Positions 14,034-28,986 of a DNA stretch of 31,171 bases are shown piece by piece. The notes under the pieces are model-generated. The model did not search any database. It was not told where the DNA came from and saw only the letters and a list, made by a program, of their open reading frames with translations. Positions within the stretch are counted from its first letter, which is position 1. Each line of letters opens with the position of its first letter. The DNA is from a virus, in the IMG/VR virus record IMGVR_UViG_3300029892_000012, positions 1 to 31,171 of that record; one strand, 5' to 3'. Position numbers and translations under genes: made by a program.

Positions 14034-16082
14034 TTACTCAACCACAGGCAGCAAAGCGCACCTGCAGTTTATGACCTCGCTTGCCGGACCCGGGGCGCCC
14101 GGGTACATCAGACCGTTGGAAAACGGCTGGTTGATCGGCTGCTGCTCGCCGTCAAGCGCCGCGTGGGACGGGCGCTCGCGGCCGTCGATCGTGGTGAGCC
14201 ATTCTTTCCTGCCCACGTCCGCCGCCCTATACGTTTCGAATGTTCCTGCACTCACGCTGTTGTGACTCTCCGTCCGGGCGATGGCTTCAGACCGCACCCC
14301 CTTTGCCTCGGCGAACACCGCAGACACGCGCTCGCGCAGCTGGGGAACAGACTCCCCGTTCTGCAGGCCCTCGTAAAGCTCCCGCCGCAGGGCCTGCTTG
14401 GTGGTGCCGTTGATCCCCTTGACCTGGTCGGCGCCGTAGGTGTCCACCCAGTCCAAAAAACGGGGGTTGAGCAGGTCCCAGCTTACCCCGAACTCCCAGA
14501 GACTTTCCGCCATCTGCCAGCCTTCCTTCCAGGACGCCAGCCAGACCGCGGTAAGCACGCCCTTCAGCTTGTCGTTCTGGGCATTCCAGTCGAGCAGGAG
14601 CTCGATGACGTTGATGACGTTCTCGAAGTCGCTGGGCGAGATCGCCTTCTCGCCGAACAGGTCCTCAAGCCGCTGGTTGACCTGGTTCTGCTGCTCCTGG
14701 AAAAACTTTTTAGCCGCCCTTCTGAAGGCGGCCTCGTGCTTTACGGCTCCTTTGTCAAACATTCGCCAGATGGCGGCATTCTGCTCTGGGGTTAAACCCT
14801 TCGCCTGCTTGCCTTCTTCCTCGTTTTCAGGCGGCTTTTTCCCGCCCAGATTTCTCTGCGGCATCGCTAATCTCGGCACGTAGTAGATATCCGCGCCCGG
14901 GTCAGGATCAAAGCCGTTTGCCTGCCGCCACTCGTTGACCTTCAGCGCCCCGCCCTTCAAGCCGTCGTTGGCAACTTTCAGCTTGAACTCCTTATCCTCC
15001 GGCACAGGGTCATCAAACCGGAAGACCAGGTTCGGGTCGAACTCCGGGCAGAGCTGCATCTGAATGTGGTCCTCGATCAAGTCCAGCACCCAGGAAAGCG
15101 TGCCCTTGCTATAGAGGTAGTAAGCCGCGTCGATGGTGCTGCGGTTCGAGTTTTCGTAGATCCCCAAAAGCTCCGGCGGCATGAACCAGTGCTGGTGCGC
15201 GATGTCCCGCAGAAACTTGCGGGACTCCACGAAGTCCATTTCCCGCTGGGGTTTGCCTAATTCCTGAATTTTCGCATCCCACGGCAGGACGGCCGGCTTG
15301 TGCGCGTTGTGGTACCCGGCGTACCGCTCCATCCACTCTTCTTTCAAACGCTCCGCCTGTTCCTTGGATATGCCCGGAGCCTGCAGGACAACCGGCGGCT
15401 TCGCGTCGTTGAAGAAAAACCGCTTGGCCCACTTCGCCATGTACTCGTCGGTCTCGACCTCGTCGCCGATGCCCTCGGCTGAGCCCAGCCCGCGCCCGTA
15501 GGGGTTGGCCGGGTCAGGCTCAAAGAACCAGACCATATCTTTTTCGTCAATCTTCAGGGAAATGCCCACTGTGTTTAACGGCACTACGGTAAAGTACGGC
15601 CGGCCGACGCTCGGCGTGTCCTGCACCCAGTGCGGCGGAATCGGCCAGAGCTCGGCTGGGACCCGCAGGCCATTTCGCTCAATCAGCCAGCCCCCCTCCC
15701 CCCGTAAAAGCAACCAGACTGCCGTCAGGTACCAGAGGGTGTGCCCCGTCCTGATCCGCGGATTGGGCCGCTTCAGCAGGTTGATCAGCGGATGCTCGAG
15801 TATTTGCTCCTCTTGTTTTCCCCGGTTGATGTAAAGTTTCCAGTCAGTTTTAGCAACGTCCTTGGCTATCCGGTAGATCGGCCGCAGCCGGGGAGACTTG
15901 CCGTAAAGCTCAATCCATTGCTGAGCGCTGCGCCTGGGCGGCTCCCCCCAGCGCGGCTGCAAAAGCTGACCCAGGTTGCTCAGCAAGCCCTGCCCGGGCG
16001 CCTTGAATATCCCCTCCCCGATGATAGAAAGCCCGAGCCGCATTGCTGTCATTCGCAGCCGCAAGTTCTCAAAAAACCTCAT
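14034..16082 (-). CDS. Portal protein fused to Mu-F-like minor head protein
   Basis: 682 residues from the ATG at 16082, which follows GAGGTGG. A GTG nine bases upstream is the alternative. Residues about 40-430 are a phage portal of the HK97/lambda-like type (IYRIAKDVAKTDWKLYINRG, HPLINLLKRPNP, GYHNAHKPAVLPWD, ENSNRSTIDAAYYLY). Residues about 470-680 are a second domain of the SPP1 gp7/Mu gpF family: helical ATEKQ-like start, then EAIARTESHNSVSAGTFE, DGRERPSHAALDG and a final SEVINCRCALLPV. In most phages these are two genes. The portal forms the DNA entry ring; the F-like protein is a few-copy head protein that in Mu-type phages helps in assembly or ejection. Confidence 0.92.
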   Translation of the reverse strand: MRFFENLRLRMTAMRLGLSIIGEGIFKAPGQGLLSNLGQLLQPRWGEPPRRSAQQWIELYGKSPRLRPIYRIAKDVAKTDWKLYINRGKQEEQILEHPLINLLKRPNPRIRTGHTLWYLTAVWLLLRGEGGWLIERNGLRVPAELWPIPPHWVQDTPSVGRPYFTVVPLNTVGISLKIDEKDMVWFFEPDPANPYGRGLGSAEGIGDEVETDEYMAKWAKRFFFNDAKPPVVLQAPGISKEQAERLKEEWMERYAGYHNAHKPAVLPWDAKIQELGKPQREMDFVESRKFLRDIAHQHWFMPPELLGIYENSNRSTIDAAYYLYSKGTLSWVLDLIEDHIQMQLCPEFDPNLVFRFDDPVPEDKEFKLKVANDGLKGGALKVNEWRQANGFDPDPGADIYYVPRLAMPQRNLGGKKPPENEEEGKQAKGLTPEQNAAIWRMFDKGAVKHEAAFRRAAKKFFQEQQNQVNQRLEDLFGEKAISPSDFENVINVIELLLDWNAQNDKLKGVLTAVWLASWKEGWQMAESLWEFGVSWDLLNPRFLDWVDTYGADQVKGINGTTKQALRRELYEGLQNGESVPQLRERVSAVFAEAKGVRSEAIARTESHNSVSAGTFETYRAADVGRKEWLTTIDGRERPSHAALDGEQQPINQPFSNGLMYPGAPGPASEVINCRCALLPVVE

Positions 16083-16092
16083 CCGCGCCACC

Positions 16093-23402: not shown

Positions 23403-23906
23403 TTACTTAACCACCTTCAATTCTCCCGGCTTGAGGTCGTGGTGAATGATCTCGCCGTCTGGTCCGAGTGCTACCTGCGGAAATTGAGCCCAGACTTGCC
23501 CGTCAAGTTCTGGCATTTTAACCACTTGCCCGTCAACCTCCATCTGCTTAAGGAAAAACGGAACGCTGGCATTAGTGCATTGATTCCGCAGGCTCCTAAT
23601 CCATTCAATGTTAGCCGGACGGCGGTTAGGGCCAGTTTCGCCACCGCAGACAACCCAGTTAAGATATGCTGGACGTAATTCCTCAAGCCCATCCCAAAAG
23701 CTGTCATTTGCGGGTGTAAGCACATCGTTACCGTCAGCATCACACAGGTCAATCGGCCCTAATAACGGTTCACAACTTACCCAACGCACCGCTGCCGGGA
23801 TTTGGAACAGAATCGGAATGCGCTCATCGGCCCGATCCTGGTTTTCAACACTAACGCCGAGCCAGACGTTTGACAGGGGCCATTCTCCACCGCCAGCAAC
23901 CCACAA
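23403..23906 (-). pseudogene. DUF5131/Gp37-type gene lacking its N-terminal part
   Basis: The 167-residue frame begins in the middle of the family: WPLSNVWLGVSVENQDRADE, IPAAVRWVSCEPLLGPIDL, VVCGGETGPNRRP and FFLKQMEVDGQ are its normal central and C-terminal motifs. The usual N-terminus (about 100 residues with the Cys-containing WNPVTGC... segment) is missing. The frame remains open for about 150 bases further right with no plausible start and a reading that does not match the family, so a deletion or rearrangement has removed the front. A residual protein could be made from a codon near 23906 or a TTG just upstream, but no good ribosome site is visible. The family is common in phages, with an unproven radical-SAM-like role. 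Confidence 0.75.
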
Positions 23907-24141: not shown

Positions 24142-27100
24142 TTAAGCGATCAGTTTGACCCGCGAGCCCTCTTCGCCCAGATCCTCGACCTCGATGGTCT
24201 GCGGGAACCGGGCCTTCATCCGTGGGTCGTGGCTGATTGCGATCACGCGCATATGGCTGTATCGGCTGGCCATCAACTCCAGGGCATCACAGTAAGCCTC
24301 GGTTCCCTCGCCATCGAGGAAGGGCGGCTCGTCGACGAACATCATGCCCAGCTGGATGCCGGCCCGCCGGGCCTTCAGGTCGGCCAGGGCGAACGCAACC
24401 GACAGGGCCGCCTTCACCTTCTGGCCACCCGACCGGCTCTTGTACGGCAGACTTCCGCGCATGTAGTCCGTGATCCAGATCTCCAGAGCGTTGACCTCTT
24501 TCTTGTTGCTCTTCTGGATCCGCTCCGTGCGCATCTCGAGGCTCATCTTCCCACCGGTCATCTGGCCGAGGATCTCGTTGGCCAGGGCAGCCAACTCCGG
24601 CACCACCGCGCGGACCACCGCGAACGGGATCCCGTCCTGCCCAAACGCTCGGGCCAGGGTCTGGTACCGGGTCACGGTCTGGGCTAGCGGTTCCATCTCG
24701 CGAGCCACACGCCGGCGCTCATCGGCGTCCCGGTTCAGGGTTTGCAGTTGGGCTTCGAGGCCGCCCTTGCGGGCGTGGAGTCGGTTCTGGTGCTCCTGCA
24801 GGGTCTTGATTTGGCTGCGTAGGCTCTCCACGTTCGCCTGCCAATTTGCCAGATCCCCGACCTCGACCATCAGCCGGCCCAACTCCTCGCCCAGTTGTGC
24901 GTACTCTTGTTGTTTGGTCGCGATGTTTTTCCCCAGGGCCGAAATGGCCTCAGTTGCCGCCTGGTAAGCCTCTTTCGCAGCCGCCAGTTGCTCCTTGGCC
25001 TTCGCCCAAGATTTCAGCCTTGGCAGGCGGGCTTCGAGGTCCCGGAGTGGGGCCAGTTCCGCCCTCAGGGCCTCCGCCCTGTTGTGCAGATCCTTGAATC
25101 GTGCCGAGGCCTTTTCTCGGGCGTCCTGGGCCCGGGCAACCTGGGCACGAAGGTCTTCGAGCAATTCGGTCCAAGCGCCAAGTTCCGATGCCTCTTCCGC
25201 CTTCGGTCGCAACTCCTGAACTTGTTGCTGTAGTTCATAGTGCCGCCGCTGGTCGTAGTCCAGGGCCTTCATCTTTTCGTCTAGCTCCTGCACCTGCTGG
25301 CGCAGAGGTTCAATTTTGGCAAGCAGCCCAGAGATTTTCTCTTGTAACTCGGGGATCCGAATCTTGGCCTGTTGGGCGTCAACTAGGAACCGGCAAGCTG
25401 CCCGATCCGGATCGAGGCATCCGCTATCGGCCAGCATGGCGGCCTTCGATTCAAGCGTCTTGAGATCGTGCTCCAGGGCAGCCTTGTACTCGGCTTTCCG
25501 GTCCATCTCCCGTTCGATGACCATGACTTGGTCATTCAGTTCACGGTACTGTGCACCGAGTGCAGCCACCCGATCCAGCTCCGAAACCAGCTTCCGGTAC
25601 TCGGCCGCGGCCTGCTCCAGCTTCTCCCGGTTCGCCAGGGTCTCTTCAAGAGACCAAATCCGCGGCTCGGCTTTGCGGATAACCACGTCCGCGTCGCCCA
25701 TTTCGCCAAGCGCCCGGCTGACTTCCACATCCAGCTCGGCCAGCTGCGGTTGCTTTGCTTTCAGCGTTGCAACGCGTTCCTTAACCTCTTCGTATTGCGA
25801 GGCTCTCTCCAGGATCTCGGGCTCGCGGGCAAGCAGTTCGTTAGCGTTAGCCAGTCGTGTTTCGTGCTTATCGGCTTGTGCGTTAAGCTCGGAGATCTCA
25901 GCAGTCAGCCGGTTGCGCTGCTTCTGTAGTTCGCGGGCCCTGTCCCGCTTTGTCTCCAGGCAGCGTACCAGGTCCTCGGCGTCGCGCAACTCAATTTCCT
26001 TGGCCTCGATCTCGCCGGCGACTCTCTCAAGGTCACGCTTCGCGTCGGCTAGATCCTCCTCGACTCCGGGCTTCGCCTTCAGTTTCTCGTCAAGCTCGGC
26101 CAGCTGGGTCTTGGCTATGGCCAGCTGCCGGTTCGTTTCGGTGACCTTCTCCTTGGCCAGCTTTTCCAGTTGCTCGTACACGCCCAGGCCCAGGATATTG
26201 GACAGGACGTTCATGCGGTCTTCGCGGTCGGCTTCCAGGAAGATCCCGTAGGCGTCCTGCATAATCAGGCCGCAGCACCGGAATGTATGGCCGTCCATGC
26301 CCAGGAGGTCAATGATCTTCTGCTGGGTCTCCCGCGCGGTGGTGCCGGAGCGGTCGATCCAGTCGCCGTCCACCAACTCCTGCAGTGCCAGGGTTGTCTT
26401 CCCGCTCTTCGCCCGGGTCCGGACAACGCGCCAGATCGAATCACCCATCGCAAACTCAAAGGTGATACTTCCGGACTTGGCCGCCTGGTCGTTGCTGATC
26501 CAGCCGGTGAGATCGCCTTCCCGGGTTTCCTCGAATAGGCAGTCGCTGATCGCGTCCATGAACAAGGCACTCTTCCCCACCCCGTTGGGGCCGTTCACAG
26601 TGGCAAAGGAAACTTGAGAGAAGTCAAATTCGGCCTGGAGGTAGGACCGGTAGTTCCGGACCTCAAGGCGCCGCGGCACAAAAACCCCGGACAGCTTCCC
26701 AGTGGGCTGCCGGGCGCTCACAGTCTCAATAAGCGGCCGGGCCAGGTCGACCAGGGCCCGGGTCTCATCCGCGTCAAGGCCCTCGGCCAGCAACCAGGCA
26801 CTCAGGTTCTCCGCCGGACCCGCGGTCTCGGTCATCTCTTGTTTGCTGAGAGCAGCCGTGATCTGCACCGGCGTGATCTCCTGGACCCAAAACGCGCCGG
26901 CGTCATACAATGCCTTCTCGATAGCCTTGTGGTTCATCCGCTTGCGGATCTCTTCGTCGCAGCCGTAATGCAGGCGCACGATGGCGGCCCGGATCGGGGC
27001 TATTTCGGCGGAATACTTTTCGATGGCCGCGGCTGGATCGTCAGCGAACAGCTCCGGCCAGTTGTTGACGCCGTCGGTGAATACATGGACCGTCTGTAAT

Positions 27101-27936
27101 TCACGCGCCGGTGTCGTAAACCAGGCTGGCTCGTCGGGGTTATCCAGGTCGTGGATCCAGAAGCCCTTAGGGAAGTCCTCTTCGTTGAACGTAATCCGGT
27201 TGATGCTGCCGCTATAGTAGACCGGCTTGCTGCCGACACCGAGCACCCGCTGCATCCGATGGATATGCCCGAGGCAGGCCAAATCGAACGGTGCGGCCAT
27301 CAAAGCCTCGGCGGGCAGGGTGACTTCGGACTGGTGAAAGACGTGCGTCTGGCCGTTGTCGTACTCAACGCCAGCGACCGCATAGTGGGCCACCAGCACG
27401 GAAGGGGTGCCGGGATCCAGCTGGGCGCCCAGGCCCAGGACGATATCGCCCAGGAGCTTCGAGCATTGCACGTTCTCCTGTTCGGGATCCATCCCCGGGT
27501 ACCTGGCCCTGAAGTGCCCTTTGTCCAGCCCGGGCACACAGCCGACCTGTAGAGGCCCGGCCGCGGTGTCAATGGCAAACAGGCCCGGACTGGTGACCAC
27601 CCACACCCCGGGAATGGACATCCTGCTGATGGTGGCAAAGGCCGCAGGGTTGTCGTGGTTTTCGGTGCCGAGCAAGAGCAAGGTCGGCGCGACCTCGCCC
27701 AACTCACGGAGCCAGTCGGCCGCCAGGCGGATCTGCTCTAACATCGGATCGGCCCACATTTTCGACTTATGGAACAGATCGCCGGCGACCAGGATCGCGT
27801 CAGGCTTTTCCTCCCGCGCGATGTGCGCCACGAAGGCCATACATCTCAGGGTGTCGTCCATCCGGGCATTCCTGCCGCCCACAACTGGCCCGGGCAGTTC
27901 GCCTAGGTGTATGTCGCCCGTGTGTAGTATCCGCAC
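24142..27936 (-). CDS. Fused SbcD-SbcC (Mre11-Rad50) nuclease-ATPase
   Basis: 1264 residues. Residues 1-360 are an SbcD/Mre11 phosphoesterase: D8 and H10 (HTGDIHLG), D53 (GDLFH), N93-H94 (TENHD, normally GNHD), H184 (VAHYAV), and H224/H226 (LGHIH). A linker of about 50 residues follows. Residues 420-1264 are SbcC/Rad50: Walker A GPNGVGKS (449-456), Q-loop with FLEADREDR (566-574), coiled coil (about 580-835), a variant zinc hook with C840 and C848 instead of CxxC, return coil (855-1095), signature SGGQK (1169-1173), Walker B GMMFVDEPP (1197-1205) and ISHD (1234-1237). The two proteins are normally separate, adjacent genes. It should process DNA ends and hairpins in phage recombination. The GTG start lies three bases after the upstream stop, indicating coupled translation. 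Confidence 0.95.
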   Translation of the reverse strand: MRILHTGDIHLGELPGPVVGGRNARMDDTLRCMAFVAHIAREEKPDAILVAGDLFHKSKMWADPMLEQIRLAADWLRELGEVAPTLLLLGTENHDNPAAFATISRMSIPGVWVVTSPGLFAIDTAAGPLQVGCVPGLDKGHFRARYPGMDPEQENVQCSKLLGDIVLGLGAQLDPGTPSVLVAHYAVAGVEYDNGQTHVFHQSEVTLPAEALMAAPFDLACLGHIHRMQRVLGVGSKPVYYSGSINRITFNEEDFPKGFWIHDLDNPDEPAWFTTPARELQTVHVFTDGVNNWPELFADDPAAAIEKYSAEIAPIRAAIVRLHYGCDEEIRKRMNHKAIEKALYDAGAFWVQEITPVQITAALSKQEMTETAGPAENLSAWLLAEGLDADETRALVDLARPLIETVSARQPTGKLSGVFVPRRLEVRNYRSYLQAEFDFSQVSFATVNGPNGVGKSALFMDAISDCLFEETREGDLTGWISNDQAAKSGSITFEFAMGDSIWRVVRTRAKSGKTTLALQELVDGDWIDRSGTTARETQQKIIDLLGMDGHTFRCCGLIMQDAYGIFLEADREDRMNVLSNILGLGVYEQLEKLAKEKVTETNRQLAIAKTQLAELDEKLKAKPGVEEDLADAKRDLERVAGEIEAKEIELRDAEDLVRCLETKRDRARELQKQRNRLTAEISELNAQADKHETRLANANELLAREPEILERASQYEEVKERVATLKAKQPQLAELDVEVSRALGEMGDADVVIRKAEPRIWSLEETLANREKLEQAAAEYRKLVSELDRVAALGAQYRELNDQVMVIEREMDRKAEYKAALEHDLKTLESKAAMLADSGCLDPDRAACRFLVDAQQAKIRIPELQEKISGLLAKIEPLRQQVQELDEKMKALDYDQRRHYELQQQVQELRPKAEEASELGAWTELLEDLRAQVARAQDAREKASARFKDLHNRAEALRAELAPLRDLEARLPRLKSWAKAKEQLAAAKEAYQAATEAISALGKNIATKQQEYAQLGEELGRLMVEVGDLANWQANVESLRSQIKTLQEHQNRLHARKGGLEAQLQTLNRDADERRRVAREMEPLAQTVTRYQTLARAFGQDGIPFAVVRAVVPELAALANEILGQMTGGKMSLEMRTERIQKSNKKEVNALEIWITDYMRGSLPYKSRSGGQKVKAALSVAFALADLKARRAGIQLGMMFVDEPPFLDGEGTEAYCDALELMASRYSHMRVIAISHDPRMKARFPQTIEVEDLGEEGSRVKLIA

Positions 27937-27939
27937 GGC

Positions 27940-28986
27940 TTACGCCCCCCTTCGCTGAGCGGCGCTGGCAGCCTTTCTTGCGCAGGATTCGCAGAGCCGT
28001 CGGCCATAGCGCTTCATGGTCCACTCGGCGAACTCTTCCGGGGTTTTGCTGTTGCCCTGACGGTCGGTAACGGTGGTGATGATCCCGCCGCATTCATCGC
28101 CCTCGCAGCCGATCGGCTCGGGCTCATCGAAGTCGAAGCCCGGCGGCAGGTCGTCATCCGGATCCTGGTCGCGATCGACCTCTTGGGCGTCCTGAATGTC
28201 GCCGAGGACCTCGCCGGTCTCCTTATTCACAATGCGGCCGCCGGGCGTCTGTACGGTGTCGGGTTTCGCTTTGGTGTCGCCTGTCCCCAGGGCCAGGTTG
28301 GTGTTTCCACCGAAGAGATCTGAAACTCCCTGGGCCATCCGGGCAGCCACGGCCTTGCGCATTTCAGGGTCCGCCATGTTCGGCACCACCAGGGCCACGG
28401 CGAAGGGCTTTTTCAGCTCGTCGGCCGTGTAGGTGCTGGAGACCATCAGGCCCTCCCGTAGTGCGCGGTTCAGGGCTTTGGTTTCGCAGTGCTCTGTCCT
28501 GTACGGGAAGAACTTGCTGAACTGCTTTTCGGTCATGGTCTTGCGCTCGTCTTCCATCCGCAGTTCCTTGGTGCCCCGGACCATCCGCCAAGTACCGGAC
28601 GGCTCTGGCACGGCGATCGCGACCTGGTGAGCGACGTCGTCCCTCGACGGGCAGTCCCCGCACCGCGGTGCCAGCCGGGTTCGGGCGGCTGCCTCAATGC
28701 AGCGCTTGCAAGCCGACGGGGTGACAGCCTCCGAGCTGATGATCTGGATGTTGGCCGCAGCCATCAGCTTGGCAAGCCCCTTCTTCGTCAGGGCCAGCTC
28801 GCCGTTTTTTTCCCTGTAGACATCCTTCCCCTTATCGGGATCCGGATCGATCTGAACTTCGTTGATAATCACCTTGTGGATCGGGCTGATCTCCTGAATT
28901 GTCTTCACCGGGATCAGCACGTTGTACCTTTCCGGCGGGTACTCGTTGATCACCGCCAGGGCGGTGGTCTCTCCGTTGGTGGTCAC
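27940..28986 (-). CDS. Zinc-motif recombination-type protein, possible single-strand annealing factor
   Basis: 348 residues from a GTG behind AAAGGAGA; a longer frame to the right has no start signal. Residues about 5-75 form a compact N-terminal part (YPPERYNVLIPVKTIQEISP, ELALTKKGLAKLMAAANI). Cysteines form a four-Cys cluster (CKRC ... RCGDCP). CETKALNRALREGLMVSSTY resembles the segment of phage annealing proteins in which a Lys/Arg-rich helix precedes a Ser-Thr strand. The acidic linker is followed by a C-terminal zinc finger (GCEGDECGG ... RLCESCARK) similar to fingers appended to phage annealing and single-strand binding proteins. I do not recognise the family by name. The close coupling to the fused SbcD-SbcC gene supports a recombination role by inference. 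Confidence 0.6.
   Translation of the reverse strand: MTTNGETTALAVINEYPPERYNVLIPVKTIQEISPIHKVIINEVQIDPDPDKGKDVYREKNGELALTKKGLAKLMAAANIQIISSEAVTPSACKRCIEAAARTRLAPRCGDCPSRDDVAHQVAIAVPEPSGTWRMVRGTKELRMEDERKTMTEKQFSKFFPYRTEHCETKALNRALREGLMVSSTYTADELKKPFAVALVVPNMADPEMRKAVAARMAQGVSDLFGGNTNLALGTGDTKAKPDTVQTPGGRIVNKETGEVLGDIQDAQEVDRDQDPDDDLPPGFDFDEPEPIGCEGDECGGIITTVTDRQGNSKTPEEFAEWTMKRYGRRLCESCARKAASAAQRRGA

Follow-up and report, generated by a model that had tools for sequence, protein, structure and literature searches.

A fused Mre11-Rad50 gene and its conserved upstream partner: probably a compact DNA-recombination kit of Clostridia phages

Mre11-Rad50 (SbcD-SbcC) enzymes carry out the ATP-regulated processing of DNA ends, and gp47 and gp46 of phage T4 are an unfused phage SbcD/SbcC pair. 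Rad52-type proteins anneal complementary strands, and the combination of a nuclease with an annealing protein is the layout of the lambda Red and RecE/RecT systems. T4 gp46/47 are described as supplying 3' ends for recombination-dependent replication (PMC3175470). In the same work, Yoshida, Claverie, and Ogata described in 2011 the fusion of Mre11 and Rad50 (SbcD and SbcC) into one protein, occurring sporadically in mobile elements, in Clostridia (a C. kluyveri plasmid, Ruminococcus, and Anaerostipes), and in a Bacillus phage, and they already made the argument from the distance between the Mre11 C-terminus and the Rad50 N-terminus (PMC3175470). The main text of that paper makes no mention of the hook, its cysteines, or zinc, and its notes on gene neighborhoods concern transposases in Deferribacter and, on scaffolds from the ocean, phage-like genes (PMC3175470). 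In streptococcal phages, sbcC lies beside sak4, and SMC-like genes lie beside recT (PMC8093625); the sbcC-sak4 neighbors are a precedent for the pairing considered below.

The window analyzed here is a virus contig of 31,171 bases, with nearly all genes on the minus strand, that encodes phage large terminase, portal, capsid, and tail proteins as well as a replication initiator and a VRR nuclease near the fusion gene. The fused SbcD-SbcC (Mre11-Rad50) gene (24142..27936, minus strand) has a GTG start preceded by a G-rich ribosome-binding site and encodes 1264 amino acids without an internal stop; the plus strand of the same interval has many stops. A sequence-only reading of this DNA had reported SbcD and SbcC in one open frame at these coordinates, and both frame and coordinates are correct, although the minus strand had been left unstated. 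Both enzymes are recognized above the Pfam cut-offs, with Metallophos (PF00149) at residues 2–227 (43.8 bits vs. a cut-off of 21.5) and AAA_23 at residues 423–620 (48.4 bits vs. 27). Directly downstream of the fusion, a DUF5131 (PF07505) gene (23403–23906, minus strand) covers just the model's C-terminal half; this gene looks like a remnant, because a 375-aa ORF at locus L002 (11041–12168) looks like the intact form. The portal gene of the window (14034–16091, minus strand) matches head-morphogenesis (minor head) families in its C-terminal part and is a portal-head morphogenesis fusion.

The Mre11/SbcD nuclease domain, supported by Pfam Metallophos and conservation, covers residues 1–300 (27037..27936, minus strand) and has the calcineurin-like phosphoesterase motifs I–V with their metal ligands (D8/H10, D53, N93-H94-D95, H184, and H224/H226), motif III being of the form GTxNHD. 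The next stretch (residues 301–420; 26677..27036, minus strand) comprises the Mre11 capping region, a linker, and helices predicted to bind Rad50; it can also be recognized at the C-terminal ends of unfused SbcD proteins (E 1e-4 to 8.5e-7). The Rad50/SbcC ATPase has Walker A, Q-loop, signature, and Walker B motifs, distributed over two lobes with a long coil between them: an N-terminal lobe (26077..26676, minus strand; Pfam AAA_23, PDB 3qf7) with Walker A at 449–456 and Q560, and a C-terminal lobe (residues 1086–1264; 24145..24681, minus strand) with SGG at 1169–1171, DE at 1202–1203, and H1236. In a PDB sequence search, residues 2–277 align with Thermotoga maritima Mre11 and residues 421–608 with its Rad50; the C-terminal signature/Walker B region is a second PDB-matched stretch that is individually weak. 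All Mre11 and Rad50 motifs named in the sequence-only reading are at the positions given there. The motif residues are 98–100% conserved over 90 non-redundant relatives, far beyond chance, and the few departures are mostly from one N-terminally truncated record; across these diverse members the catalytic residues are retained in both enzymatic halves, whereas the coil diverges freely. The closest PHROGs families are the SbcC-like phrog_77 (4e-108) and the SbcD-like phrog_100 (2.5e-19). A comparison with SbcD and SbcC models, which the sequence-only reading had proposed as a check, gave matches to both NCBIfam models, but below their cut-offs (sbcd, TIGR00619, 75.1 bits vs. 77.65; sbcc, TIGR00618, 131.5 bits vs. 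478.5), which indicates a divergent phage type rather than the canonical cellular subfamilies.

Used alone as the query, the protein retrieved one close relative from virus contigs and none from genomes. A profile built from three sequences found 27 virus loci and at least 80 genome loci, nearly all of them in Bacillota/Clostridia; a search of a plasmid collection found no place covering 80% of the fused protein. The fusion, which the sequence-only reading had regarded as unusual, is therefore common in Clostridia phages and prophages and has been described since 2011 (PMC3175470), and its claim to novelty falls by the refutation criterion that the sequence-only reading itself had set. An assembly or sequencing artefact joining two genes has a practically negligible probability, because about 100 relatives, drawn from phage contigs and Clostridia genomes, show the same fusion: on about 100 separate contigs, one of them the complete chromosome of Faecalibacterium sp. 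I4-3-84 (L046), the frame is open in the same way and 210–240 residues separate GHIH from Walker A. Nearly all relatives are single open frames of about 1240–1340 aa. A stop or frameshift hidden near residues 365–415, which the sequence-only reading had singled out as a point to check, can be dismissed, since the frame is open there in the window and in every full-length relative.

The coil tip carries a hook of the form C840-x7-C848-x-F850-L851-x-D853-A854 (25375..25419, minus strand), defined by conservation in the 90 members, in which the two cysteines and F, L, and A are 100% conserved and the remaining coil is unconserved. The spacing is C-x7-C in 88 of the 90 non-redundant members and C-x6-C in the other two; the CxxC of the canonical Rad50 zinc hook is not found in the fused family. 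The position of the hook is fixed at 401 aa after Walker A and 338 aa before the signature (SD about 5). Motif III reads GTENHD in this protein and GTxNHD in 88 of the 90, with GTPSHD in one member and no match in another, as in the N-terminally truncated record. All sampled unfused SbcD relatives read GNHD, and CPVC or CPTC hooks occur in the SbcC of an unfused clostridial sister, in Staphylococcus phage K (CPVC), and in one host SbcC. The sequence-only reading had read C840-x7-C848 and GTENHD correctly and had called both sites altered; they do differ from CxxC and GNHD, but they are conserved marks of the whole fused family, not oddities of one protein. In the unfused Moorella phage MTATph1, SbcC (L111:5968–8118, with SbcD several genes upstream) also carries a C-x7-C hook (PCNDKLKPSCPLL). 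The altered hook is therefore not a product of fusion, and the suggestion that fusion could change how the coils dimerize is weakened. The coil tip probably dimerizes through a putative non-canonical four-cysteine zinc site contributed by two C-x7-C hooks.

Of 391 genomes sampled at class level, three carried the fused gene and seven had the distant unfused sister only. This sister pair (L122–L127 and L130) consists of an SbcD of about 407 aa and an SbcC of about 854 aa with a 4-nt overlap; it has a CPVC/CPTC hook and no phrog_13782 neighbor. A tree built from the ATPase lobes separates the fused proteins by a single branch (97/96) from the unfused sister and a canonical SbcC; the branches involved are long, so that a single origin is compatible with the tree but not proven by it. 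Listeria phage LMTA-57 (L112:3995–7024) has an ORF annotated as a single 1009-aa "recombination exonuclease", which spans SbcD together with a portion of SbcC and has a CPTC hook. It has no P-loop match and was not counted as a functional fusion; it is either a genuine fusion that has degenerated or a merge produced by a frameshift.

The sequence-only reading caught the fusion but missed the near-obligate neighbor that holds most of the functional information, so that the main value of the locus lies outside 24142–27936. This partner gene (27940..28986, minus strand) encodes a predicted Rad52-superfamily annealing protein of 348 aa; its PHROGs match is phrog_13782, which has no annotated function. 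Its GTG start at 28986 lies behind a strong ribosome-binding site, and a longer frame from TTG extends to 29103. In the window, 3 nt separate partner and fusion. In 102 of the 108 fetched loci, a set that includes some near-identical copies (86 partners remained after redundancy filtering), the partner immediately precedes the fusion on the same strand, and in 55 loci the two genes overlap or are spaced by at most 50 nt. Four of the six loci without the partner are contigs that end 38–553 nt upstream of the fusion; the fifth (L029) is, by eye, a decayed copy beside a recombinase gene, and at the sixth (L039), which has a full flank, another gene lies upstream. Small ORFs that do not form one conserved family sit between partner and fusion in a good part of the loci. 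Gaps of about 350–450 nt (e.g., L012, L075, and L049) correspond to an inserted extra small ORF of several unrelated types. The adjacency of nuclease and partner expected of a Red-like module is thus conserved, with the partner a putative SSAP by its predicted fold.

Sequence comparison did not identify the partner as a known SSAP: 74 family members had no match to the Pfam SSAP families (ERF, Rad52, Sak, and RecT) at E <= 0.01, PHROGs and a PDB sequence search gave no relevant named match, and hhalign against small ERF, Rad52, and Sak sets gave nothing. AlphaFold models were built from the 74 members, one for the 348-aa partner (pLDDT 84) and one for the core of another member (pLDDT 87). With Foldseek, the top 22 PDB matches of the first model are all Mgm101 or RAD52, beginning with Mgm101-ssDNA, and the top 26 of the second are all RAD52; named viral structure matches include ERF, Rad52, and RecT proteins. 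As the best E-values are modest (1.7e-3 and 2.5e-3) and the TM-scores of both models are below 0.5, the call of a RAD52-like fold rests on the consistency of the matches, and the two models are not fully independent because they share a family alignment. On this basis, the partner looks like a strand-annealing protein of the Rad52 superfamily, to which it has no significant sequence similarity. The C-terminus of the partner carries a zinc-finger-like element (27979..28107, minus strand) with four cysteines (C294, C299, C332, and C335) in invariant or nearly invariant alignment columns, which would bind zinc.

At L039, the gene upstream of the fused SbcDC in place of phrog_13782 (L039:4475–5392) encodes a protein with ENAETSALGRAL. 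This protein has no Pfam assignment and is 47% identical over 60 residues to a protein of another phage that was named "mgM101-like" by its depositor and whose gene adjoins exonuclease and SSB genes; here one annealing protein looks to have been replaced by another, a candidate Mgm101/ERF-like protein. RecT and ERF models had no match in the window or in 20 related virus records, which makes the phrog_13782 protein the likeliest annealing protein of these phages, although this absence is weak evidence because many of the records may be fragments.

The partner also bears on two other explanations of the locus. The fused protein could be a plain phage SbcCD that cleaves palindromes/hairpins or repairs ends, with the partner co-transcribed but functionally separate, for example as a generic ssDNA-binding protein. 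The nearest PHROGs families of the fused protein are named as "palindrome specific endonuclease" subunits, and Pfam weakly matches a single partner-family member to a phage ssDNA-binding protein; nevertheless, the near-obligate adjacency of the partner across diverse Clostridia elements and its RAD52/Mgm101-like fold make this explanation unlikely, and the 50 PDB matches listed for each model include no ssDNA-binding OB-fold protein. We consider it more improbable still that the fused protein is an SMC-like nuclease for defense or counter-defense against foreign DNA (cf. Wadjet and Lamassu), borne by prophages against competitors. Rad50/SMC-like complexes are known in defense (PMC10586767) and many fused copies are on bacterial contigs, but the gene in the window lies among phage replication genes (replication initiator and VRR nuclease), the fusion at L003 is followed by ORFs that resemble, by eye, a replication initiator and a DnaC-like loader, and the partner looks like an annealing protein.

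We consider it likely, from the sequence motifs and the modeled fold, that the two genes form a phage recombination module like lambda Red, composed of a single-chain Mre11-Rad50 nuclease and a Rad52-fold annealing protein. The Rad50 half would bind DNA ends and hydrolyze ATP, and the Mre11 half would trim or clip the ends, leaving 3' single strands; the partner would coat these strands and pair them with homologous ssDNA, presumably in physical contact with the fused protein. Such a module could serve phage DNA replication and recombination by repairing ends, forming concatemers, and recombining with the DNA of other phages, and tethering on one chain would give a fixed 1:1 ratio of nuclease and ATPase. 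In the open-licence papers searched we found neither a linkage of the fusion to a Rad52-fold partner nor the C-x7-C hook. The broader proposal, which we judge on balance probable, is that of a widespread, undescribed Clostridia phage recombination system in which a new Rad52-fold annealing family is the obligate companion of a one-chain Mre11-Rad50 with a non-canonical C-x7-C hook, the two genes forming a minimal MR-Rad52 resection-annealing machine.

If this is correct, two genes would do the work of eukaryotic Mre11, Rad50, and Rad52, and the protein would be a convenient object for the study of how the ATP cycle of Rad50 drives Mre11, how a non-CxxC hook dimerizes, and how resection is handed over to an annealing protein. 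The module could also find use in the recombineering of Clostridia, and the unannotated phrog_13782 is offered a testable function.

By comparison with published descriptions, the fused protein has the same order as the fusions of Yoshida et al. (PMC3175470), with N-terminal Mre11 and C-terminal Rad50 in one frame. It comprises the same two enzymes as the unfused SbcD and SbcC of Staphylococcus phage K (ORF72/74) and Moorella phage MTATph1; these phages, in contrast, use two genes, and the phrog_13782 partner was not found in the fetched stretches of either. The predicted fold of the partner is that of the Rad52/Mgm101 superfamily (PMC11783212, PMC9870868), from which it differs in its additional C-terminal four-cysteine finger. 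The placement of a nuclease gene beside an annealing gene is shared with lambda Red (Exo and Beta), RecE/RecT, and the SSAP-exonuclease modules of Firmicutes phages (PMC8093625), although the nuclease of the present pair, with Mre11 and Rad50 in a single chain, also has an ATPase and a long coil, and the putative annealing protein falls in no Pfam SSAP family. The fusion itself has thus been known since 2011, and the upstream partner is the new element; together they are probably a compact phage DNA-recombination kit.
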